A DNA stretch of 64,000 nucleotides from the NCBI GenBank assembly GCA_900110595.1, contig FOEZ01000017.1, forward strand, positions 19,987-83,986, read 5' to 3'. The DNA is from Arthrobacter sp. OV608. Its GTDB lineage: Bacteria; Actinomycetota; Actinomycetes; Actinomycetales; Micrococcaceae. Shown one piece after another: positions 14,066 to 58,172 of this stretch. The notes below the pieces were generated by a model. That model made no database searches. It saw only the letters and a program-made list of their open reading frames with translations, and was not told the origin of the DNA. The stretch's first letter is position 1; each line of letters opens with the position of its first letter. Position numbers and translations under genes: made by a program.

Positions 14066-14888
14066 GGGGGATTCTGTCTGGCGTGCCGCCAACCAGCTGC
14101 ATCAGGCCCTGGCAGGGCAAAAGCTCATCAGTTCTGACTTCCGGGTACCCCGCTTCGCCACCCTGAACCTCGCCGGCTGGACTGTGGCCGAGGTAGTCCC
14201 CCGCGGCAAGCATCTGCTGATGCGGGTGGTAAGCCCGGAGGACAAAAAGCTCACTATCCATTCACACCTGAAGATGGAGGGCGCCTGGCAGGTCTACCCG
14301 CCCGGCGGCAAGTGGCGGAAACCGGGCTACACCGCCAGGTGCGTGCTGCGCACCCCGGTGGCGGACGCCGTCGGATTCTCGCTGGGGATCGTCGAAGTGG
14401 TGGCCACCGCAGACGAAGACTCCATTGTCGGTTTTCTCGGCCCGGACCTGCTGGGCCCGGACTGGGACCTCGACGAAGCAGAGCGCCGGGTCCGGGCAGC
14501 TCCGGACGTCCCCATCGGAGTGGCGCTGCTGGACCAGCGCAACCTCGCCGGCATAGGCAACATCTACCGCTGCGAAACGTGTTTCCTGTCCGGAGTGCAT
14601 CCGGCGTCACCTGTATCCGCCGTCGAGGACGTCCGGACCCTGATGACCGATGCGAAGCAACTGCTCGAGGTCAACCTCGGTCCCGGCCGGCGCGTCACCA
14701 TCCTCAATCCCAAAGGGATGCCGGTGGGCAGGATGGCGGGGCGGCCGGGCTACTGGGTCTACGGCCGGGAGCACCGGCCCTGCCTCAAATGCGGGACCCC
14801 CGTGCGGCGCGGCACCCTCGGCAAACCCAACGGCGAGGAAGAACGGGATATCTATTTCTGCCCGCGCTGCCAGCCGCTGTCAGGCTAA
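14058..14888 (+). CDS. Fpg/Nei family DNA glycosylase (Nei2-like)
   Basis: Base-excision repair glycosylase/AP lyase acting on oxidised bases. After processing of Met, Pro2 and Glu3 (MPEGDSVWR) are the catalytic pair. The helix-two-turn-helix lies near residues 150-230 (RNLAGIGNIYRCE). A C-terminal zinc finger has Cys pairs CLKCG and CPRCQ (about 243-275). At 276 aa its length is normal. GTG 14058 lies inside the end of lhr (8-bp overlap), a helicase-glycosylase repair pair. The PEGDSVWR start and gene order resemble actinobacterial Nei2. Confidence 0.92.
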   Translation: MPEGDSVWRAANQLHQALAGQKLISSDFRVPRFATLNLAGWTVAEVVPRGKHLLMRVVSPEDKKLTIHSHLKMEGAWQVYPPGGKWRKPGYTARCVLRTPVADAVGFSLGIVEVVATADEDSIVGFLGPDLLGPDWDLDEAERRVRAAPDVPIGVALLDQRNLAGIGNIYRCETCFLSGVHPASPVSAVEDVRTLMTDAKQLLEVNLGPGRRVTILNPKGMPVGRMAGRPGYWVYGREHRPCLKCGTPVRRGTLGKPNGEEERDIYFCPRCQPLSG

Positions 14889-15541
14889 GCCCCGCTCTGC
14901 GCAGTCGAAGCAGCGCCGGCGGCAGCGGGCTTGCGCTCCTGTGTGTCGGCGTCCGCGGGCAAAGCCGCGGGAACCATAAACACCGGCAGGAGGAACTGGA
15001 CCAGCGGACCGATGGCAAGGGCGTACACAACAGTGCCCACCCCCACCGAGCCACCGAGGAACCAGCCGGCGGCGAGAACCACAACTTCGATCAAGGTGCG
15101 GGACACCCTCACCGACCAGCCCGTCCGCCGGGCCAGCCCGGTCATCAGGCCGTCACGGGCACCGGGACCGAACCGCGCGCCGATGTAGCAGGCGGAGGCG
15201 ATTGCATTGAGCAGGACGGCGCCTGCGAGCATACCGATCTGGCCGCCCAGGTGGGAGAAGGCGGGAATCACCGCGAGCCCGATGTCTGCAAAGACACCCA
15301 CCAGAATCGCGTTGCACAGCGTGCCGAACCCCGGCCACTGGCGCAGTGGAATCCACAGCAGCAGCACCAGGAAGCTCACGATGATGACCACCGCCCCGAT
15401 GCTAAGACCCGTCCTGCCCGCCACGCCCTGGTGGAAGACGTCCCACGGGTCGAGGCCAAGGCCGGCGCGGATGAACATGGCAAGGGAAATGCCGTACATG
15501 GCGAGGCCGATAAAGAGCTGGAGGAGTCTGCGGGTCAACAT
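14885..15541 (-). CDS. YczE/YitT-like integral membrane protein
   Basis: A 218-aa protein with about five hydrophobic helices and an internal repeat-like arrangement typical of the YczE/YyaS/YitT family (AGLGLDPWDVFHQGVAGRTG, IGARFGPGARDGLMTGL). Function is unproven, and transport is inferred. ATG 15541 begins MLTRRLLQLFIG, with GAGGG just upstream. A longer reading from 15562 would run into the operator region. The last 4 bp overlap the glycosylase gene in convergent orientation. It is divergent from a MocR regulator, the arrangement described for yczE-yczR in bacilli. Confidence 0.83.
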   Translation of the reverse strand: MLTRRLLQLFIGLAMYGISLAMFIRAGLGLDPWDVFHQGVAGRTGLSIGAVVIIVSFLVLLLWIPLRQWPGFGTLCNAILVGVFADIGLAVIPAFSHLGGQIGMLAGAVLLNAIASACYIGARFGPGARDGLMTGLARRTGWSVRVSRTLIEVVVLAAGWFLGGSVGVGTVVYALAIGPLVQFLLPVFMVPAALPADADTQERKPAAAGAASTAQSGA

Positions 15542-21885: not shown

Positions 21886-21905
21886 GCCTTCAACCCTACC
21901 CAGAC

Positions 21906-21993
21906 CCTCTCTCACTTAATGTCGGGAAATTCTTAACGCTCTCTTCAGAGTGAGAGGGCGTTAAGGAAAAAGCCGCATCAAGTGAGAGAGCGT
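21906..21993. repeat. Nested inverted-repeat element A
   Basis: An outer pair, CTCTCTCACTT (21906-21916) with AAGTGAGAGAG (21980-21990), encloses an inner pair, TTAACGC-T-CTCT with AGAG-G-GCGTTAA (about 21933-21964). It lies between a hypothetical gene and ppc. It has the same plan and core as elements at 46.2 and 56.8 kb. Confidence 0.8.
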
Positions 21994-21999
21994 TGCTGG

Positions 22000-24810
<2,811 letters not shown>

Positions 24811-44797: not shown

Positions 44798-46060
44798 TCA
44801 GCGCGGGTCGGTGACCTTTCCCATAAACAGCGGCAGCCCGGTGTCCGTGTGCACGATCTGGTAGTGGAACGGCCGGTCGAAGGTGATGGACCTTTCGGGC
44901 TCGGCCGGGGCACTCGTGGCCATGCCGTTGATCTGGGTGACGGCCGCGGCCACCGTTCCCTTTTCCGCGACGGTAATGTTCGCGTCCTGCGCAGCCTGGG
45001 TGAGCACCATGCCCGGCTGGATTGCATCAAAATCCGTGATGGTTTCCAAGGTTTTGCGCAGGCCCATGTGCTCGAACACTTCCCGTAAATCAAAGCTGCT
45101 CTTGTGGTCCCAAGTGGGCAGCGCAATGTCGACCATCACGGGATCTGCGGCTTCCAGGGCATCTGCCACCGCGGCCAACAGGTCCGCCTTGATGGCGGCA
45201 GCACCGCCGTCGGAACCCCTCGCGGGAAGAACCAGCCGCATCACAAACCCCTCGCCATACGGCAGGTCCACCGCCTGCCAGCCGGCACCCTCGGCGTACG
45301 CCATGTACTGCGAGCCGTGCATCATGGGCACGCTGGCGGTTCCCTGCGCCGTGGCAAACGGGGCATCGGACGTAGCCTCAGCAGCAAAGGGGGTCTCCCA
45401 GGCGCCGGCAAAATACACGGCGTTCAGGAGGCTGAAGGTGTTCCTGGTGTCGTACTTGGCGGGCGCCTTCTCGATCCGGCCGCCCGTATTCCTGTTGACC
45501 CAGGCGTCCATGGCCGGCTTGGTGGCGGCCTCGTCAGGAAAGTCCACGGGGTACACGCCGGTGCCGTAGTGCTTCGCCAAGGTCTTCAGGTAGTCCTCCC
45601 CGGTAGGAGTGCTCCGGTCCACAAACAACCCGTTCGCCGTGTGCATCAGGGGCTTGGCGGGCGGGTTTTCCTCGTCCACTGAGCCCGGGTCGCCGTCGTA
45701 CTCCTCCAACGAGGCGAGCAACGCGTTCATGGCCTCGTCCCGGCCGGCAGCGGGGAGCCCGAGCACGGCATCAATCTCCGCGGCGGCCTCCCCGGTTGCG
45801 CCCGCGCGAAGCATGGCGAGGGCAATCAGCAGGCTGCCGGGCGACGCAACCACGTTGCCCTCTCCCCCGCTGGCCAGCAGGGCATCCCCCAGCGTGAAGG
45901 CGGAATTCCGGAAACTGGCCAGCTCATCCCTGAAGGCCGCGCTGTCCACCGCGGCACGCTGCACGCCGTCTGCCGTGAGCAACTGCGGCGGCGCCGGTGC
46001 AGCACACGCCGCCATGGCCAGTACGGCGCCGAACGCCATTGCGCGCTGGAAATGCTTCAC
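44798..46060 (-). CDS. Serpin family lipoprotein
   Basis: A 420-aa serine-protease inhibitor-like protein exported as a lipoprotein (lipobox AMAAC, Cys19). Serpin hallmarks include NAVYFAGAWETPF, the hinge region NITVAEKGTVAAAVTQING, and the C-terminal ITFDRPFHYQIVHTDTGLPLF. The Ala-rich hinge suggests an inhibitory, loop-inserting serpin. The scissile bond would fall about 15 residues later, near MATSAPAEPE, and cannot be assigned. GTG 46060 has GGAGG eight bases upstream. It is alone on the minus strand. Confidence 0.92.
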   Translation of the reverse strand: MKHFQRAMAFGAVLAMAACAAPAPPQLLTADGVQRAAVDSAAFRDELASFRNSAFTLGDALLASGGEGNVVASPGSLLIALAMLRAGATGEAAAEIDAVLGLPAAGRDEAMNALLASLEEYDGDPGSVDEENPPAKPLMHTANGLFVDRSTPTGEDYLKTLAKHYGTGVYPVDFPDEAATKPAMDAWVNRNTGGRIEKAPAKYDTRNTFSLLNAVYFAGAWETPFAAEATSDAPFATAQGTASVPMMHGSQYMAYAEGAGWQAVDLPYGEGFVMRLVLPARGSDGGAAAIKADLLAAVADALEAADPVMVDIALPTWDHKSSFDLREVFEHMGLRKTLETITDFDAIQPGMVLTQAAQDANITVAEKGTVAAAVTQINGMATSAPAEPERSITFDRPFHYQIVHTDTGLPLFMGKVTDPR

Positions 46061-46196
46061 GGCTGTTGCCTCCCCCGGCATCACGCGGCAGTAATCCGCC
46101 TGATCCCAGTGAAACAGCGACGACGGCAGCGGACCATGCCGGTAGGGTCACGCTTTGCACTCATTTAGGTCTCGCGCCCCCGCGATGTCCCCCATA

Positions 46197-46301
46197 GGAC
46201 GCTCTCTCACTTAACGCGGGGAAACCCGGAACGCTCTATCACTTTCCTGAAGAGAGTGATAGAGCGTTCGGGTATTTCCTGCAGGAACTGATAGAGCGTC
46301 C
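46197..46301. repeat. Nested inverted-repeat element B
   Basis: Outer pair GGACGCTCTCTCACTT-like (46197-46212) with TGATAGAGCGTCC (46289-46301). Inner hairpin 46225-46243 with 46255-46272: 18 paired bases and one bulge, ending in CTCTATCACT. It sits in the 323-bp gap between the serpin start and the end of the transporter gene. The rest of the gap (46061-46196) shows only a probable serpin promoter region, with nothing distinct. Confidence 0.85.
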
Positions 46302-46383: not shown

Positions 46384-47775
46384 TCACACGCCGAGGGAGT
46401 CCTTGTCCTTGCCGCTGCCCGTGGGCGCCTGGTCCCAGGCGTGACCCTGTTCGCGGTCCAGGTGCGTGGCCTTTTTGTTCTTCAGGGCAAAGATGTACAC
46501 CAGCAGGGACACTGCGATGGCCACGGTGACGTAGGTGAAGAACAGGTCCTCCCGCCCGGCTTTCTGGAAGGCCGCGCCGATCAGCGGGACTGTGCCGCCG
46601 AACAGCGAGTTGGCGATGGCGTAGCCCAGGCCCACGCCGAGGGCGCGGATGGAGGCCGGGAAGAGTTCGGCTTTCACCAGGGCGTTGATGGAGGTGTAAC
46701 CGCCCACGATCAGCAGGCCGCCCATCATGAGCAGGAACGCGGTGAACGGATCCTTGGTGCCTGCAAGGGTGGAGAGCAGCGGCCAGGTGAACAGGACTCC
46801 GGTGATGCCGAACCACAGCAGCAGCGGCTTGCGGCCTACCTTGTCCGAGATGATGCCGTAGACCGGCTGCAGCAGCATAAAGATGAACAGCGCCCAGAAG
46901 TTGATCACGGAGGTGTCGGTCTTGGCGATGCCGGAGGTATCGTTCATGAACTTCAGGATGAAGTTGGTGTAGGTGTAGAACGCCACGGTGCCGCCCAGGG
47001 TAACGCCGATGCAGATCAGCAGCGGCTTCCAGTACTGGGTGAACAGCAGTTTCATGGTGCCCGGCTGAGCTCCCCCCGCTGCCGGGGCCTTGGCAGCCTG
47101 GATCTGCTCGGCCGAGACAGTTTCTTCCATGGAGCGCCGCAGCCACAGGACCACCAGCGCGGCGACGCCGCCGATGGCGAACGGGATGCGCCAGCCCCAC
47201 TCGGTGAGATCGCCCTTGGGTATGGCGTTCTGCAGGATCACCAGGACCAGCAGCGCCAGCATCTGGCCGCCCACCAGGGTGACGTACTGGAAGCTGGAGA
47301 AGAATCCGCGGCGCTTGCTGGTGGCGGCCTCTGACATGTACGTGGCGCTGGTGCCGTACTCGCCGCCTACGGAGAACCCCTGGATCACCCGGATGAGGAC
47401 CAGCAGGATCATCGCCCAGAGCCCGATTACATCCTGCGTGGGAAGGATGGCGATGGCGAATGAACCGGCAGACATCATGGTCACGCTGAGCGTCAATGCT
47501 GCCTTGCGGCCCTTGCGGTCCGCGTACCGGCCGAAGAACCAGGCGCCGATGGGGCGCATGAGGAAGGACGTTGAGAAAACGGCCATGGCTTCAAGGCCGG
47601 CCTGGAGTTCATCCTTGGAGTTGAAGAAGTGCGCCTGGAAGTAGGCGGCGAAGACTGTGTAGACGTAGAGGTCGTACCACTCCACCAGGTTGCCGGCGGA
47701 GCCCTTCAGAATGTTGCCCACGGCGCGCCGGGTCTGTGCCGATTCACTGACTGTTGCGGTTTGCTGGCTGCTCAT
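46384..47775 (-). CDS. MHS-family major facilitator (organic-acid/metabolite:H+ symporter type)
   Basis: A 463-aa, 12-helix transporter of the MHS/KgtP-ProP group. Motif A is GRYADRKGRKAAL, with NLVEWYDLYVYTVFAAYF before it and RVIQGFSVGGEYGTSATYM after. Such proteins often carry dicarboxylates, alpha-ketoglutarate, shikimate or betaine. The ATG at 47775 overlaps the stop of a 27-codon leader gene (ATGA), with its own GGAAGG seven bases upstream. It is divergent from a two-component operon ending in a binding lipoprotein, the likely controller. Confidence 0.93.
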   Translation of the reverse strand: MSSQQTATVSESAQTRRAVGNILKGSAGNLVEWYDLYVYTVFAAYFQAHFFNSKDELQAGLEAMAVFSTSFLMRPIGAWFFGRYADRKGRKAALTLSVTMMSAGSFAIAILPTQDVIGLWAMILLVLIRVIQGFSVGGEYGTSATYMSEAATSKRRGFFSSFQYVTLVGGQMLALLVLVILQNAIPKGDLTEWGWRIPFAIGGVAALVVLWLRRSMEETVSAEQIQAAKAPAAGGAQPGTMKLLFTQYWKPLLICIGVTLGGTVAFYTYTNFILKFMNDTSGIAKTDTSVINFWALFIFMLLQPVYGIISDKVGRKPLLLWFGITGVLFTWPLLSTLAGTKDPFTAFLLMMGGLLIVGGYTSINALVKAELFPASIRALGVGLGYAIANSLFGGTVPLIGAAFQKAGREDLFFTYVTVAIAVSLLVYIFALKNKKATHLDREQGHAWDQAPTGSGKDKDSLGV

Positions 47776-47855
47776 CGCTGAACCTTCCTTGGCTGCGCGG
47801 TCCCCGCTGTCCGCTCCGGCCTGATTTTTGTGCTGTCCATGGCAGCGTTGCTCAT
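47772..47855 (-). CDS. 27-aa leader gene coupled to the transporter
   Basis: A short open frame from ATG 47855 with a strong AAGGAGG site four to five bases upstream. It runs 27 codons, basic at the end (QPRKVQR), and stops in TGA that overlaps the transporter ATG by 4 bp. Not recognised. It could be a real small protein, or a translational-coupling leader that controls ribosome delivery to the transporter. No attenuator-like codon run (His/Trp etc.) is seen. Confidence 0.6.
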   Translation of the reverse strand: MSNAAMDSTKIRPERTAGTAQPRKVQR

Positions 47856-48121
47856 GGTTCCTCCTTGAGGTTGTTCGTCCCCTCGCAAAGCCTGAGGACC
47901 TCATCCAAGCTATGCGTGAGCCACGGCACAGCCCAAGCGAAAACGGAATTCCTAACACTTCCTTAGGTATTCGTTCCTTTTGCCGTGGTGCCGGATGGCT
48001 CCTGCGCGCGCGGCGGAGAACCGGTGGAAGGGGTAATCTGCCAAGGGCAGGCAGAGTGGTGCGGGACAGTCGTCCGGGGAGCCGCGACATCGTGCCGCTC
48101 GAAAGGGAACAGGAACTGGCT
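47856..48121. promoter_or_regulatory. Divergent control region of transporter and two-component operon
   Basis: This gene-free stretch has CCACGGCA (47921-47928) and TGCCGTGG (47981-47988) flanking an AT-rich patch, which contains CCTAA-N7-TTAGG (47951-47967) and GGAATTCC (47946-47953). These nested inverted repeats are the best candidate binding site for the response regulator. The rest, near 48000-48110, is featureless leader. Confidence 0.45.
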
Positions 48122-48790
48122 ATGGATGTGCTCATCGTCGAGGATGACGACGCCATGGCATCCGCCCTCGAAGCGGCGGTGGTTTCTGCCGGGCACACCT
48201 CCAGCAGGGTGTCCCGCGGCGCGGACGCGCTCCTCGGGCACCGGCGGTTCGGAGTTATCTTGCTGGACCTGGGACTCCCGGACATGGACGGGCTGGAAGT
48301 CCTGCGCAAGCTGCGGCAGGTCACCGATGTTCCCATCCTGATTCTGACCGCGCGCGACGACGAACGCAGCGTCGTTCTGGGCCTGCGCTCCGGAGCGGAC
48401 GACTACCTGGTCAAACCAGTCAAGCTGGTGGAGCTGCTCGCCCGCATTGAGGCTGTGACCCGCCGGGCGGCCAGGTCGCAGGACACCAGGCAGCGCCTCA
48501 TCACGCTGGGCGACCTGGAAGTGGACCTCGAACGCCGGGTGGCTGTCCTTGCCAAGGAAGACCTTTCCCTGACGGCCACGGAATTCGACCTGCTCGCACT
48601 CCTGGCCAGCCATGCAGGTTCAGTGGTGACGCGGGAGCAGATCCTGGACTCGCTGTGGGGTGATGCGTTCGTCGCCTCCTCCCGTGCCCTGGATGTTCAT
48701 CTGACCGGCCTCCGCGCCAAGCTTGGACTTCCGGGCTTCATCATCAACGTCCGGGGCGTAGGCTACCGCATCGAGGCGGATTCTGCGTGA
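48122..48790 (+). CDS. OmpR-family response regulator
   Basis: A 222-aa regulator with a receiver domain (acidic pocket EDDD at 7-10, phospho-acceptor Asp49 in ILLDLGLPD, Lys98 in DYLVKP) and a C-terminal winged helix (LTATEFDLLALLASHAGSVV, ending NVRGVGYRIE). ATG 48122 has AGGA seven bases upstream. Its stop overlaps the kinase start (GTGA). It probably binds the divergent spacer and controls the transporter. Confidence 0.95.
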   Translation: MDVLIVEDDDAMASALEAAVVSAGHTSSRVSRGADALLGHRRFGVILLDLGLPDMDGLEVLRKLRQVTDVPILILTARDDERSVVLGLRSGADDYLVKPVKLVELLARIEAVTRRAARSQDTRQRLITLGDLEVDLERRVAVLAKEDLSLTATEFDLLALLASHAGSVVTREQILDSLWGDAFVASSRALDVHLTGLRAKLGLPGFIINVRGVGYRIEADSA

Positions 48791-50232
48791 GGCTCCGCGT
48801 CCTCGGGATCCTGAGCGTCCTGTCCGTCCTACTGGTCCTCATCGCGTCCAACACCATCCTGGCGTCGGCCGGCAGGGAACTTACCCAGGAGCTTCAAATC
48901 AACCGGGCCGCTTCCCTGAACCGGCTCGCCCAGGTCGCTTTCGACGCCGGGGCCGACGGCGGCGAGGCCACCCAGCTGCAGGCTGAAATGGACCGGTACT
49001 CCGAGCTCTATGGGGAAGGCGTCCTGATCCGGCTGCAGCAAGGCACCCTGCGCTCCGGCGGCCTCAGCGAGGACCGGGCCGACGTACGGGACGCCCTGGC
49101 CAGGGCAAGCCTGAACCTGAGTGACACCACGCTGGCGCCGGTTCAACCCTTCGGCACCGGTTCGGCGGTGATCTCCCGTTCCTTCGGAAGTGCCAGCCAA
49201 GTGCTCGGGGCGGCGGTCCTGGAAGTCAACCAGGACGCTGCCCGCCAGAAACTGCGCGAACGCTGGCTCGCCGTCGGACTGGCCGCAGCTGCCCTCGCGG
49301 CGCTGCTCCTCATCGCCGCGGCCCGGGTGACCCGCTGGGTGCTGCGCCCGGTCCACCGGCTCAATGCCGCCGTCGCCGAGCTTGAAACAACTGGCCGGAG
49401 CGGCCGGCTGCCGGAGGAAGGCCCGCCCGAGTTGAGGGAACTGAGCCGGTCCTTCACCTCCATGGCACAGAGTGTCAGCGACAGCCTCGAAGCCCAACGC
49501 CAGCTCATAGCGGACACCTCCCATGAGCTCCGCAACCCAGTGGGAGCACTGCGGCTGCGGATCGACCTGCTGCAGTTGGAACTGAAGACAACCAAGGAGC
49601 GGGCGGCTGCTGCCGCAGTGGTCACGGAGCTTGAACGTGTGGAGGAGATCCTGGACGGCGTGTTGAAACTTGCCGCGGCGGAGCACCGGGCCTTCGCGGA
49701 CTCGGCCGGCACCCCGTCGGGAGGTCCCTCCCCCGCCGACCGGACTCCGATTGACCCCTTTCCCGTCCTGCAGGGGGAAGCCGAACGGGCAGGACCGGCC
49801 GCACGGCTGGCGGGCGCCTCCATCGTGCTCGGGAGCCCGCATCACGTGCCGGCACTCATTGCCTGCCGCCCGGACGACCTGGCCCAGATGGTTGGCGAAC
49901 TGCTAAACAACGCAATCAAGTACGCCGGCCGCGCCACTGTCACAGTTGCTGTCCACGCACGCGGCGCCAGTGTGGTGATTGAAGTGTCCGACGACGGGCC
50001 GGGGCTTTCGTCCGATGAAAGGTCAGTGGCCACACAGCGTTTTTGGCGCTCGCCAAAGCACACGGCGGTCAGCGGCAACGGCCTGGGCATGACCATCGTG
50101 GACAAACTGGCAGTGGCGAACGGCGGACGTCTCCTGCTATCCGGGGCACAACCCCACGGTCTGCGAGCCTGCCTCGAGTTCCCGCGGGCCGGCTCAGAGC
50201 TGGGAGACCAACCGGCAGGCGGCATCGAATGA
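48787..50232 (+). CDS. Sensor histidine kinase
   Basis: A 481-aa membrane kinase. TM1 about 7-27, an extracytoplasmic domain of about 125 residues, TM2 160-180, HAMP, then the H box DTSHELRNPVG (His246), N box ELLNNAIKYAG, and G boxes DDGPGL and GNGLGM. The first 4 bp overlap the regulator gene and the last 4 the binding-protein gene. The external domain is too small for a full binding protein, so the neighbouring TAXI lipoprotein may present the ligand to it. Confidence 0.94.
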   Translation: MRLRVLGILSVLSVLLVLIASNTILASAGRELTQELQINRAASLNRLAQVAFDAGADGGEATQLQAEMDRYSELYGEGVLIRLQQGTLRSGGLSEDRADVRDALARASLNLSDTTLAPVQPFGTGSAVISRSFGSASQVLGAAVLEVNQDAARQKLRERWLAVGLAAAALAALLLIAAARVTRWVLRPVHRLNAAVAELETTGRSGRLPEEGPPELRELSRSFTSMAQSVSDSLEAQRQLIADTSHELRNPVGALRLRIDLLQLELKTTKERAAAAAVVTELERVEEILDGVLKLAAAEHRAFADSAGTPSGGPSPADRTPIDPFPVLQGEAERAGPAARLAGASIVLGSPHHVPALIACRPDDLAQMVGELLNNAIKYAGRATVTVAVHARGASVVIEVSDDGPGLSSDERSVATQRFWRSPKHTAVSGNGLGMTIVDKLAVANGGRLLLSGAQPHGLRACLEFPRAGSELGDQPAGGIE

Positions 50233-51248
50233 GTGACCCTGCTGCCCTTCTGACCACCTCCATGTCGAGGCGTAGCGTGCTCAAAGCCGGTGCGGCCGCC
50301 GGACTGGCGGGGATTCTGCTGCCGGCGCTGGGTGCCTGCACTCCGGAAGACCGGGTGGATTCTTTAGTTGTGGCTGGTGGCGAGCCGGGCGGTTTCTACC
50401 TCGAGTTCGCTACCCTGCTTGCCGCCTCGCTGCAACGCAACGGGGTGGCCCGGCAGGCCACCGCCCTCCAGACAGGCGGCAGCCTGGACAACCTTGAGCA
50501 CCTCCTCGGCGGGCGGGCTACGTTTGCCGTCGCCCTTGCTGATTCGGCGGCCGAAAAGGCAGCGGGGAGGATCGCATCCGAGGCGGGAATCGCAGCCCTC
50601 GGCCGGGTCTACGAAAACTACGTCCACTGTGCGGTCCGGCAGGCCAGCGGTCTTCGCACCATCTCGGATCTGGCAGGCAGGACGGTGGCTGTGGGTGAGC
50701 CGGGGTCCGGAACATCCCTGACCACACCGCGCCTGCTGAAAGCAGCCCGCCTCACTTCCGTCTCCGCCGGTGGTGCCGCCAGCCGCGGAGAAGCGGTGAC
50801 CGTCCTGAACCTGGGACTCAATGACGGGCTGTCAGCACTCCGGGACGGTTCGGTGGATGCCTTGTTCTGGTCCGGGGGTGTGCCCACCGCCGCCATCGCC
50901 GCCGCCCACCACGACGTGGGCCTCGCTTTCCTGGATCTCTCCGTGCTGCTTCCTGTGCTGCGTGCGGAGTATGGCACCTTTTACGACCGGGTGCTCATCC
51001 CGGCCGGAGCATACGAGGGGCTTCCCGCAGTCTGGACGGTGGGGGTGACCAACCTGCTGCTGTGCCGTAGCGATCTGGCGGACACCGCCGTAAAGCGGAC
51101 TGTGGAGCTGTTGGTCAATCGCGCGGAGGAGCTCATTCCCCAGTCCAGCCTGGGTGTCCAGTTCCTCAGCCCGGAATCCCTGATCAACACCGCCGGCCTG
51201 CCGCTGCACCCTGGAGCAGCCGCCGCGTACCGGGAGCTCCACGGGTAA
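50229..51248 (+). CDS. TAXI-family solute-binding lipoprotein, Tat-type signal
   Basis: A 339-aa TAXI (TRAP-associated extracytoplasmic immunogenic) protein. A twin-arginine signal (SMSRRSVLKAG, Arg14-Arg15) leads to a lipobox (ALGAC, Cys37), so export folded as a lipoprotein is likely. Family segments are GGEPGGFYLEFATLLA, TGGSLDNLEHL and GRTVAVGEPGSGTSLTT. The ATG overlaps the kinase stop by 4 bp. TAXI proteins normally feed TRAP permeases, but none is nearby, which argues for a sensory role with the kinase. Confidence 0.88.
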   Translation: MSDPAALLTTSMSRRSVLKAGAAAGLAGILLPALGACTPEDRVDSLVVAGGEPGGFYLEFATLLAASLQRNGVARQATALQTGGSLDNLEHLLGGRATFAVALADSAAEKAAGRIASEAGIAALGRVYENYVHCAVRQASGLRTISDLAGRTVAVGEPGSGTSLTTPRLLKAARLTSVSAGGAASRGEAVTVLNLGLNDGLSALRDGSVDALFWSGGVPTAAIAAAHHDVGLAFLDLSVLLPVLRAEYGTFYDRVLIPAGAYEGLPAVWTVGVTNLLLCRSDLADTAVKRTVELLVNRAEELIPQSSLGVQFLSPESLINTAGLPLHPGAAAAYRELHG

Positions 51249-51252
51249 GCAA

Positions 51253-51297
51253 ACGCCCCATCACTTCCTGCTTCAATCGGGCAGACGCCCCATCACT
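51253..51297 (+). repeat. Direct repeat of ACGCCCCATCACT (element E)
   Basis: ACGCCCCATCACT occurs at 51253-51265 and 51285-51297, 32 bp apart. The CCCCATCACTT core is one base from the CCCTATCACTT arm of the element at 54961, so it may be a degenerate relative. It lies in the 213-bp gap after the TAXI gene. Confidence 0.6.
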
Positions 51298-54960: not shown

Positions 54961-55015
54961 GCCCTATCACTTATGGTCCTCAATCCCTGCTTTTGAGGAC
55001 CATAAGTGATAGGGC
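54961..55015. repeat. Perfect 23-bp inverted repeat between aceA and aceB
   Basis: Arms 54961-54983 and 54993-55015 are perfectly complementary with a 9-nt loop. The outer end CCCTATCACTT is related to the core of elements A, B and D. It could act as a terminator, mRNA stabiliser or protein-binding site separating the two glyoxylate genes. Confidence 0.85.
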
Positions 55016-55043
55016 ATCAGCGGACTTTCAAGGAGTCACTCCA

Positions 55044-56696
55044 ATGAACAGCTTTACTGACAGCTTCACTATTAACGGAATTACCCTGACTGCGCAGCCG
55101 ATTTGCCGGCAGGACGAGGTTCTTACCCCGGACGCTCTCGAGTTCGTTGCCAGGCTGCACCGGGCTACTGCTGAGCGTCGGCAGGAGCTGTTGCAGGCAC
55201 GCCGGACCCGCCGTGCTGACATTGCGGGCGGGCAGGATCCCAGGTTCCTGCGGGAGACCGAGGACATCCGCAACGACCCGTCCTGGCGGGTCGCTCCCCC
55301 GGCCCCGGGCCTGGAGGACCGGCGCGTGGAGATCACCGGGCCGGTGGACAAGAAGATGACCATCAACGCCCTGAACTCCGGCGCGAAGGTCTGGCTCGCC
55401 GACATGGAGGACTCCTCCACCCCCACCTGGCGCAATGTGATCAAGGGCCAGCTGAACCTCACCGACGCCCTGGAACGCCGGATCGACTTCACCAGCCCCG
55501 AGGGCAAGGAATACAAACTCCGCCCCGCCGGCGAACTGCCCACCATCGTGGTCCGCCCCCGCGGCTGGCACCTGCCTGAGAAGCACATGCTCATCGACGG
55601 CGCCCCGATCGCCGGCGGGATCGTGGACTTCGGACTGTTCTTCTTCCACAACGCCCGCCGCCTCCTGGCCCAGGGCAAAGGCCCGTACTTCTACCTGCCC
55701 AAGATCGAAAACCACCTCGAAGCCCGGCTTTGGAACGACATCTTCATCCTCGCCCAGGACCTGCTCGGCATCCCGCAGGGCACCATCCGCGCCACCGTGC
55801 TGATCGAAACCATCACCGCAGCCTTTGAAATGGAGGAAATCCTCTACGAACTGCGCGACCACGCCTCCGGCCTGAACGCCGGCCGCTGGGACTACATCTT
55901 CTCCCTGATCAAGAACTTCCGCACCCGCGGCCCCCGCTTCGTCCTCCCGGACCGCGGCCAGGTAACCATGACGCAGCCGTTTATGCGCGCCTACACCGAA
56001 CAACTTGTCCGGGCCTGCCACAAACGCGGCGCCATGGCCATCGGCGGCATGGCCGCAGCAGTCCCTAACCGCAAGGACCCCGAAGCGAATGCCAACGCGT
56101 TCGAGAAGGTCCGTGCGGACAAAACCCGGGAGGCCAACGACGGCTTCGACGGCTCCTGGGTGGCGCACCCCGACCTCGTCCCCGTCTGCCGCGAGGTGTT
56201 CGACTCCATCCTGGGCGAAAAGACCAACCAGCTGGACCGCACCCGCGAGGACGTCACTCCGGACGACCGGGCCCTGATCAACGTGGCCGCCACCCAGGGC
56301 ACCATCACCGAACAGGGCATCCGGAACAACATCGAAGTCGGGATCCGCTACATCGAATCCTGGCTCCGCGGCAACGGTGCAGTGGCCATCCACAACCTCA
56401 TGGAAGACGCGGCCACCGCCGAAATCTCCCGCTCCCAGCTCTGGCAATGGATCTACGCCCGGGCCATCACCGACCACGGCGAAATCATCACCCACCACTG
56501 GATCGAGGAGCTGCTCGACGAAGAATTCGCCCGGCTCGAACGCTTCGACGGCGACCGCTTCGAAGACGCCCGCGACATCTTCGAAGAAGTCACCCTCGGC
56601 CACGACTTCCCGTCCTTCCTCACCCTGCCCGCCTACGCGCGCTACCTCACCGAAACCCGCGAAAAGGCCACCGTCGAGGAGCTCGCCGCGGTCTGA
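55044..56696 (+). CDS. aceB: Malate synthase A
   Basis: Condenses glyoxylate with acetyl-CoA to malate, the second glyoxylate-shunt step. A 550-aa protein of the A isoform, with signatures [20 protein letters not shown] (about 275-294), [11 protein letters not shown] and [16 protein letters not shown] lies eight bases before the ATG. It follows aceA by 103 bp, most of that a hairpin repeat. Co-regulation by RamB is expected. Confidence 0.96.
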
Positions 56697-56833: not shown

Positions 56834-56940
56834 CGGACGATCTCTCACTTAATGTGCGAAATCCGCCGACGCTCTCTCACTTTCCAGAAGAAAGTGAGAG
56901 AGCGTCGGCCGTTAAGCCGCGTTAAGTGAGAGAGCGTCCG
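56834..56940. repeat. Nested inverted-repeat element D
   Basis: Inner perfect 20-bp stem (56865-56884 with 56890-56909, loop of 5). Outer pair 56834-56852 with 56922-56940 matches at 18 of 19 positions. Both stems contain GAGAGAGCGTC/GACGCTCTCTCACTT. It lies between the convergent ends of aceB and the CynX-like gene. Confidence 0.9.
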
Positions 56941-56975: not shown

Positions 56976-58172
56976 CTATCGCCCCTTCGGCACCCGCCGT
57001 ACGGAGAGGGTGGACGCGACGAAGAACGTCAGCACCGATGCCAGGATGACCAGCAGGGCCGGTGTCCAGGAACCCGAGACGTCGTGCACATAACCCACCA
57101 GCGGAGGAGCCACGGCACCGAAGCAATAGCCCAGCCCCTGGACGGTGGCGGACATCCGGCCGGCGGCAACCTGGTCCCGGGCCAGCTTGATGATGGCGAT
57201 GAAGATCAGGGTGATTCCCCCGCCCTGGGCCACGCCGCCGAAAACGGACCACAGCCACCAGAGCTCGGGTACCAGCAGGAGGCCCGCGGGCACGGACGTC
57301 CACAACACACCCAACGTGACCGCCGTCGTCGTCGTACTGAAATACTTGGCCGCAAACGGCACGCCCAGGCCGCCCACAATGGCGAACACCTGGAACAGGG
57401 AGGAGCCTGCGCCCGCACCCGAAGCGGACATGCCGAGTTCGTCGTTAAGGTAGCTGGGCAGCCACGCCGTGACGGCGTAATAGGAGAAGGCCTGGCCGGC
57501 GAATGCTGCAGTAAGCCCGGCCGTGGTCCACGCCGAACCGGCCACAGCCGCCGGCCGCTGCCCGTCCGGCACGGGAGCTGCGGAGGGCACAAAGGCTGCA
57601 CGGAATCCGATGGCGAGCACCCAGCACACGATGGCCGCTACCGCCAGAAGCGCGGTGGACGCGAGCGCGAGCTGCCAGCCCGCGAGTTCGGCCAGCGGCG
57701 CCGTGACCATCGAGGTCAGGAAGGATCCGACGTTCAGCGCGGCGGTGTAGACCCCCATCGCAGTGCCCTGCCGCAGCGGCGGAAAGTCGCGGCGAATGAT
57801 GAGGGGAGCGGCGATGTTGCCGATAGTGATGGCCAGGCCGATCACCACAGTCCCGGCCAGCACCAGCGCAGGACCGCCGGCTGAGCGGATGATGACGCCG
57901 GCGAGCACTCCCAGGATGGTCAAGGTCACGGCAAGTTCCGCACCGTACCCGCGGGCCACCAGTGAGGCCAGGGGTGCCGCCAGCGCGAAGCAGAGGACCG
58001 GGATACTGGTGAGCAGGCCCAGCACCACCGGCGAGAACCCAAGGTCCGCCTGCATCACGTCCACCACAGGGGCAACGGCCACGAACGGGCCCCGCAGGTT
58101 CAGTGCCAGCAGCCCGATACAGGCCAGCAGGATCCAGGTCCGCGGGATCCGGGCCAGGAAAGGGGCGCTCAC
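56976..58172 (-). CDS. CynX/NimT-type major facilitator
   Basis: A 398-aa, 12-helix transporter of the cyanate/nitroimidazole (CynX) branch of the MFS. It opens with LLALNLRGPFVAVAPVVDVM, followed by AGYGAEL-like loops and RRDFPPLRQGTAMGVYTAAL. GTG 58172 is the start. It is divergent from the hydroxyacid dehydrogenase. The substrate is unknown, and the family includes cyanate and drug exporters. Confidence 0.85.
   Translation of the reverse strand: MSAPFLARIPRTWILLACIGLLALNLRGPFVAVAPVVDVMQADLGFSPVVLGLLTSIPVLCFALAAPLASLVARGYGAELAVTLTILGVLAGVIIRSAGGPALVLAGTVVIGLAITIGNIAAPLIIRRDFPPLRQGTAMGVYTAALNVGSFLTSMVTAPLAELAGWQLALASTALLAVAAIVCWVLAIGFRAAFVPSAAPVPDGQRPAAVAGSAWTTAGLTAAFAGQAFSYYAVTAWLPSYLNDELGMSASGAGAGSSLFQVFAIVGGLGVPFAAKYFSTTTTAVTLGVLWTSVPAGLLLVPELWWLWSVFGGVAQGGGITLIFIAIIKLARDQVAAGRMSATVQGLGYCFGAVAPPLVGYVHDVSGSWTPALLVILASVLTFFVASTLSVRRVPKGR

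Follow-up and report, generated by a model that had tools for sequence, protein, structure and literature searches.

Intergenic DNA of Arthrobacter-group soil bacteria carries arrays of a 32-bp module, which are polar, regularly phased and placed preferentially at the 3' ends of genes, and the reading that we tentatively favour from their sequence, at somewhat less than even confidence, is that they are read by a protein and act as transcription terminators. The module is composed of an asymmetric 20-bp motif, R-ACGCTC-NN-TCACTT-NNN-GC, followed by an S-run, a W4 tract and another S-run, and the full unit in its sense strand is R-ACGCTC-NN-TCACTT-NNN-GC-SSS-WWWW-N-CCC-S-R, where sense means the direction of reading away from the neighbouring stop codon. 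The window, that is, the whole stretch of 64,000 nucleotides analysed, belongs to a genome of 4.93 Mb and contains the following elements, located by direct reading and motif scan, in which > and < are the orientations of the units.

Element A, 21904..21993, minus strand: array with two arms in the gap that separates ppc from the following ORF; units at 21904 (>), 21936 (>, degenerate), 21950 (<) and 21982 (<).
Element B, 46199..46299, no strand assigned: two-armed array of 2 + 2 units with a centre offset of 25, located downstream of the MFS ORF 46384-48336; units at 46199 and 46231 (>), 46256 and 46288 (<).
Element C, 51253..51296, plus strand: one-armed array of two units in the CCCCATCAC dialect, starting about 4 bp past the end of the plus-strand ORF 50043-51248.
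Element D, 56837..56937, no strand assigned: two-armed array of 2 + 2 units between the convergent ORFs 54993-56696 and 56976-58172; units at 56837 and 56869 (>), 56894 and 56926 (<).

Elements A, B and D had been recognized in the original prediction as a family of nested double hairpins, and all three are real and in their predicted places. Since each arm holds two units 32 bp apart, one good and one degenerate in the left arm of A, the plan of an outer inverted pair plus an inner hairpin was right; the 20-bp inner stem of D recurs in the predicted fold, and at least one flanking gene ends toward each element, namely ppc (22000-24810, minus) at A, the MFS ORF (minus) at B, and the plus-strand and minus-strand ORFs on the two sides of D. 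That account lacked element C and also the 32-bp period, the main feature of the family. Base identity, said to be limited to a core, is nearly so limited, the common part being the first 20 bp of the unit plus the W4 tract. The family also has further copies, as had been expected: in the own genome GAGAGAGCGT occurs 38 times versus 0 for a reversed-pattern control, AAGTGAGAGAGCGT with up to 2 mismatches gives 116 matches versus 5 for the control, and AAGTGANNGAGCGT is found in 88 of 101 genomes of the genus at 0-131 copies, with none in 13. The own genome also carries, in locus L027, arrays of a CGCGCTCACTTGTGGCC subfamily with 4 units (2367-2476) and 10 units (14881-15216), which are 12.5 kb apart with host-like genes in between. 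The identities of ppc, MFS and serpin are Pfam matches; the serpin gene (PF00079, E 3.9e-73) lies at 44798-46084 of the window, in an actinobacterium, and ORFs resembling it in two other genomes (G058 and G077) have an array right after the stop.

The precision of the ruler is seen in same-strand neighbour motifs 12-70 bp apart (n=788), 672 of which are spaced at 32 bp, 21 at 31 bp and 23 at 33 bp. When 115 middle units were profiled, picked by position alone and not by their own sequence, 1.5-1.9 bits were obtained at positions 1-6, 9-12 and 14, and the W tract stood at 23-26. Sense units come first in an array and antisense units follow, both facing a centre hairpin, and pairs facing outward are rare (1 or 2 per listed offset). 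The innermost inverted pairs (n=179) are found at offsets of 14-17 bp (54), 25 bp (81) and 36 bp (9), the remaining ones being at 18-24 or 26-35 bp (15) and at more than 36 bp (20), and these centre classes differ by roughly one helical turn.

Hairpin structure had been predicted to matter, and this holds for the two-armed forms. Predicted RNA folds of A (-48.0 kcal/mol, z -6.5), B (-62.5 kcal/mol, z -9.4) and D (-85.3 kcal/mol, z -14.2) were each more stable than all of 200 shuffles, and in 69 two-armed elements the centre stem reaches linker positions 28-32 of both arms, with covariation inside genomes at z 1.8 to 4.4, pairing at linker positions 22-26 being below chance (one-sided p 0.001 to 0.02 each). 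Pairing between the arms at positions 13-20, which appeared against shuffles across genomes, is explained by the motif dialect described below when shuffling is done within genomes. A hairpin within each unit is rejected, because base-pair covariation inside the linker was looked for and not found, and the unit is thus not a palindrome. Moreover, 46 of 133 arrays are one-armed, and the single one-armed array that was folded (L021) was no better than its shuffles (z -1.1). The nested double hairpin is therefore one form of the family and not its essence.

Arrays lie preferentially at the 3' ends of genes. Among 133 arrays whose two neighbours both lie no more than 400 bp away, 59 sit between convergent ORFs, 62 between tandem and 12 between divergent ones, the figures for all gaps of at least 60 bp at the same loci being 118, 243 and 113. 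Arrays with a farther neighbour were excluded from the strand and context tests, and the gene contexts, assigned with a simple ORF picker, are wrong in some cases, such as the one at 51253. When each of 50 unrelated neighbourhoods contributed a single array, the bias had a p of 0.011. The W tract, in addition, is biased to T in the mRNA strand. In tandem contexts T prevails in 45 sense arms and A in 5 (1 tied), and antisense arms read in their own sense have A in 23 and T in 11 (6 tied); in unrelated neighbourhoods the counts were T 18 and A 4 for sense arms and A 9 and T 6 for antisense arms (p 0.015). The sense arrays of ppc, which are orthologous to one another, comprise 25 with T, 2 with A and 1 tied. 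Element A, whose right arm is in sense for ppc, has TTTTT in its sense linker and fits this T rule; B has AAAT, contrary to it, and the sense linkers of D do not clearly follow it. One-armed arrays in tandem contexts are in sense in 16 cases and antisense in 7 (p 0.09), and the 5 versus 3 in unrelated neighbourhoods are not significant.

A T-tract precedes the second and later units but not the first, and the 39 bp ahead of the first unit show no T bias; close to the unit this sequence turns C-rich and G-poor, the last 12 bp having a C fraction near 0.5 and a G fraction near 0.14-0.27. Such a composition fits Rho-dependent termination, which takes C-rich, G-poor transcripts, and together with the stable folds of A, B and D and the covariation of the centre stem it speaks for terminators working at the RNA level, by Rho loading on the sense strand or by plain hairpin termination, with no dedicated DNA-binding factor. 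We nevertheless regard this explanation as unlikely, since neither process needs an exact 32-bp ruler or a 20-bp dialect motif, and the one-armed L021 folds like its shuffles. As for intrinsic terminators, which have a GC hairpin and then a U-run, the hairpin is present in A, B and D, and in the antisense arms of 23 of 34 non-tied arrays T follows the centre on the mRNA strand, but one-armed arrays are without the hairpin.

At the 3' end of ppc the distance from the stop to the first unit has a median of 9 bp. Of the 70 genus genomes examined there by script, 58 had an element, which was assigned to type I in 45, to type II in 10 and to neither with certainty in 3, and 12 had none. By eye, 2 of the 45 type I cases (L174, L180) look like type II, and 4 of the 12 without an element (L155, L189, L192, L206) hold a degenerate hairpin. 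No array was seen at 24 ppc loci of other genera. Type II, which is present in at least 41 of 101 genomes, is a hairpin with arms GCNCNATCACTTNTGGTCSC; among the matches listed with the two arms next to each other, the arm starts are spaced by 35 bp (34 once). Both types can occupy the same sites in different species; at the 3' end of pgm, type I was found in 13 of 70 genomes, type II in 4 and neither in 53, the last being an upper bound because the stop was unlocated in some genomes. (The names pgm, nitroreductase, ackA, gcvT/H and alr/tsa are those that we take these genes to have from reading the protein sequences.) A genome-wide swap between the two types was not significant when ppc was compared with pgm (8 I-I, 2 II-II, 1 discordant, Fisher 0.055; of two genomes with an uncertain ppc type, one was concordant and one discordant). 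Other observations at these sites are as follows. Downstream of ppc, in loci L151-L220, a TAGGGT-like box, placed as a leaderless promoter would be, lies a few bases upstream of the following ORF and near the array. In the ppc locus of G015 (L201) the final bases of ppc, including the stop, are repeated in tandem ahead of the array. In G007 (L257, 1275-1960, contig C25) a 170-aa ORF with a type II hairpin on either side is inserted between nitroreductase-like and pgm-like genes, and G055 has a single hairpin at the same site.

Across the family, 32-bp dimers were found in 22 genomes out of 245 and in 2 of 32 genera; in the sister genus 8 of the genomes sampled have dimers and others lack them. 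Among the matches listed by a single pattern scan, at least 117 stretches, the carriers with a name are Arthrobacter, Pseudarthrobacter, Paenarthrobacter and a Micrococcaceae MAG; with so many loci coming from one scan, the sample of loci is uneven. No viral and no phage copy was found, and a single weak one on a plasmid. Rfam 15 at gathering score, run on the window and 17 own-genome loci, left the arrays unmatched, its only matches being 5S rRNA and tRNA elsewhere. A large transposon with array ends at 127-140 kb of contig C22 was considered and rejected, as the stretch contains what were read as host genes. In two genomes (G020 and G059, contig C1 in each) dimers are clustered in one part of the chromosome, 53 of 54 among the matches listed for G020 falling at 0.30-2.84 Mb, and the crowded region surrounds the origin as judged by the position of ppc in genomes that start near 0.5-0.7 Mb. 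This clustering and the phased spacing of the units would suit units bound by a protein that organises the nucleoid or chromosome; such a role seems very unlikely to us, because the T strand tracks transcription, 13 of the 101 genomes are without copies, and core genes also sit near the origin. A relation to replication polarity is rejected, since the complete dimer list for two genomes has both strands.

Each genome tends toward its own dialect of the motif, and this dialect is limited to the first 20 bp of the unit. It was measured on 347 array arms (1972 within-genome and 57883 between-genome pairs). Because some genomes appear twice, once by G handle and once by record name (e.g. G015 and JACXBW), five such labels were merged for this count; the picture without merging is similar. 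Two units taken from separate loci of a single genome match more often than two from different genomes at position 7 (+0.19) and at positions 15-19 (+0.11 to +0.31), with no excess at 21-32 (-0.04 to +0.04), and agreement is lower at positions 5 and 8 (-0.11 and -0.06) because some genomes hold several subfamilies. Since it is confined to 20 bp of the unit, the dialect points to a trans-acting reader and suggests that the putative reader has a drifting specificity for the 20-bp motif. A guide RNA pairing with the motif was also considered and rejected, as in our reading of the own-genome matches listed, 100 of 116, those with no mismatch or one lie in arrays, and no isolated copy was seen.

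A repeat that is copied for its own sake is the principal competitor of this reading, and mobility had been suggested by the original prediction together with a RayT-like transposase. On such an account the arrays would be non-autonomous selfish repeats, REPIN- or MITE-like, spread by a putative mobiliser and kept between gene ends where they do least harm. We consider it a real possibility, although one that is more probably wrong than right. The variation of copy number from 0 to 131 per genome agrees with it, and so does the finding that a given site may be occupied by either type, depending on the species. REPINs or MITEs would leave near-identical copies at unrelated loci; of 1101 pairs of whole elements compared within genomes but across loci, 18 reach 88% identity or more over at least 60 bp (19 were counted, one being a locus paired with itself), e.g. 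L129 and L210 (94% over 93 bp) and L011 and L022 (89% over 101 bp). The whole-element comparison also gave 8 local duplications, and the ppc array of G045 resembles another array in the same genome. Some whole elements thus look copied, and the claim of mobility has partial support. Most arrays, however, share no linkers between loci (identical linkers in 0 of 1850 arm pairs of one genome before merging of labels and in 2 of 1972 after it, both from one locus pair), and copying explains neither a dialect restricted to 20 of 32 bp nor the T bias of the mRNA strand. The link with RayT was not borne out, Y1_Tnp (PF01797) being found in 1 of the 101 genus genomes and not in the own genome. We take occasional copying to run beside a putative drift of reader specificity, and the readings may overlap, that is, a repeat copied now and then may yet be read by a host factor.

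The arrays resemble known bacterial repeats in several respects. Mycobacterial MIRUs are, like the arrays, tandem direct repeats that stand between actinobacterial genes and are oriented with them, but their units are longer and they are not known to have a 32-bp ruler or mirrored arms. REP, REPIN and BIME sequences are likewise short intergenic repeats with inverted dimers, clusters, many copies and species-specific families, but the REP unit is described as a palindrome with a 5-13 bp stem and a GTAG or CGTC tag (PMC3733652), whereas the array unit is a non-palindromic 20-bp motif on a 32-bp ruler, without covariation inside the linker. In its account of the GTAG and CGTC super-families the same source names no Arthrobacter or other actinobacterial family, and the RepRanger results give a bulk palindrome count for one Arthrobacter (PMC12306157). 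CRISPRs have constant repeats and unrelated spacers, but linkers within one array agree at 0.68-0.88 over positions 15-32, with 0.90 at position 18. Among the papers listed on Arthrobacter and Pseudarthrobacter repeats, MIRUs, hairpins and terminators, on tandem repeats of Micrococcales, on roadblocks, on MIRU orientation and on Rho in Micrococcus, none was recognised as a description of these arrays.

Returning to termination by a protein that reads the arrays, each 32-bp unit would be one site made of the asymmetric motif and the T-tract, and the period of about three helical turns, together with the offsets of 14-17, 25 and 36 bp, would place the sites on similar faces of the DNA. A putative sequence-specific factor on the array would halt RNA polymerase leaving the gene, the T-tract within the array would weaken the RNA-DNA hybrid, and the centre hairpin of two-armed forms may aid release; between convergent genes a two-armed array would be a two-way terminator. 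RNA polymerase I terminators, whose factors are Reb1/Nsi1 in yeast and TTF-I, which has the Sal boxes as its sites, use the same principle of roadblock, T-rich element and RNA hairpin, and Evers and Grummt (1995) are said to have described a co-evolution of terminator sites and factor between species. Like these terminators, the arrays have polar candidate protein sites at the gene 3' end, a T-rich element and a hairpin, as far as the account in PMC12366685 goes; they differ in that they are found at many unrelated bacterial genes and that their terminator role is a putative one. In bacteria, DNA-bound LacI, CcpA and Fis can stop RNA polymerase, but these are regulators with other main roles, and no dedicated array-based terminator is named in that discussion of roadblocks (PMC10310618).

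The roadblock model, a proposal and not a proof, would cover the ruler, the asymmetric dialect motif, the 3'-end position and the T-tract. In its fullest form the model would have a sequence-specific DNA-binding protein, dedicated to termination and different from Rho, that reads the polar arrays with their 32-bp phase at the 3' ends of dozens of genes; as the specificity of this protein drifted, the motif would have been rewritten at all its sites within a lineage, in a bacterial counterpart of TTF-I and the Sal boxes. In this form we think the model rather unlikely to be right. Against termination stand the sense linkers of B and D without T, the first unit without a preceding T-tract, the 12 of 133 arrays between divergent genes, the 13 of 101 genomes with no copies, the apparent copying of some whole elements and the several subfamilies in some genomes.

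If a protein reads the arrays, textbooks would miss part of how transcripts are ended in a large G + C-rich group of soil bacteria, and the dialects would be a natural experiment in which one factor co-evolves with many scattered sites. If, on the other hand, the arrays are selfish, a new mechanism of spread would still be needed for a repeat in which the linkers drift but the 20-bp motif and the exact 32-bp ruler are kept.
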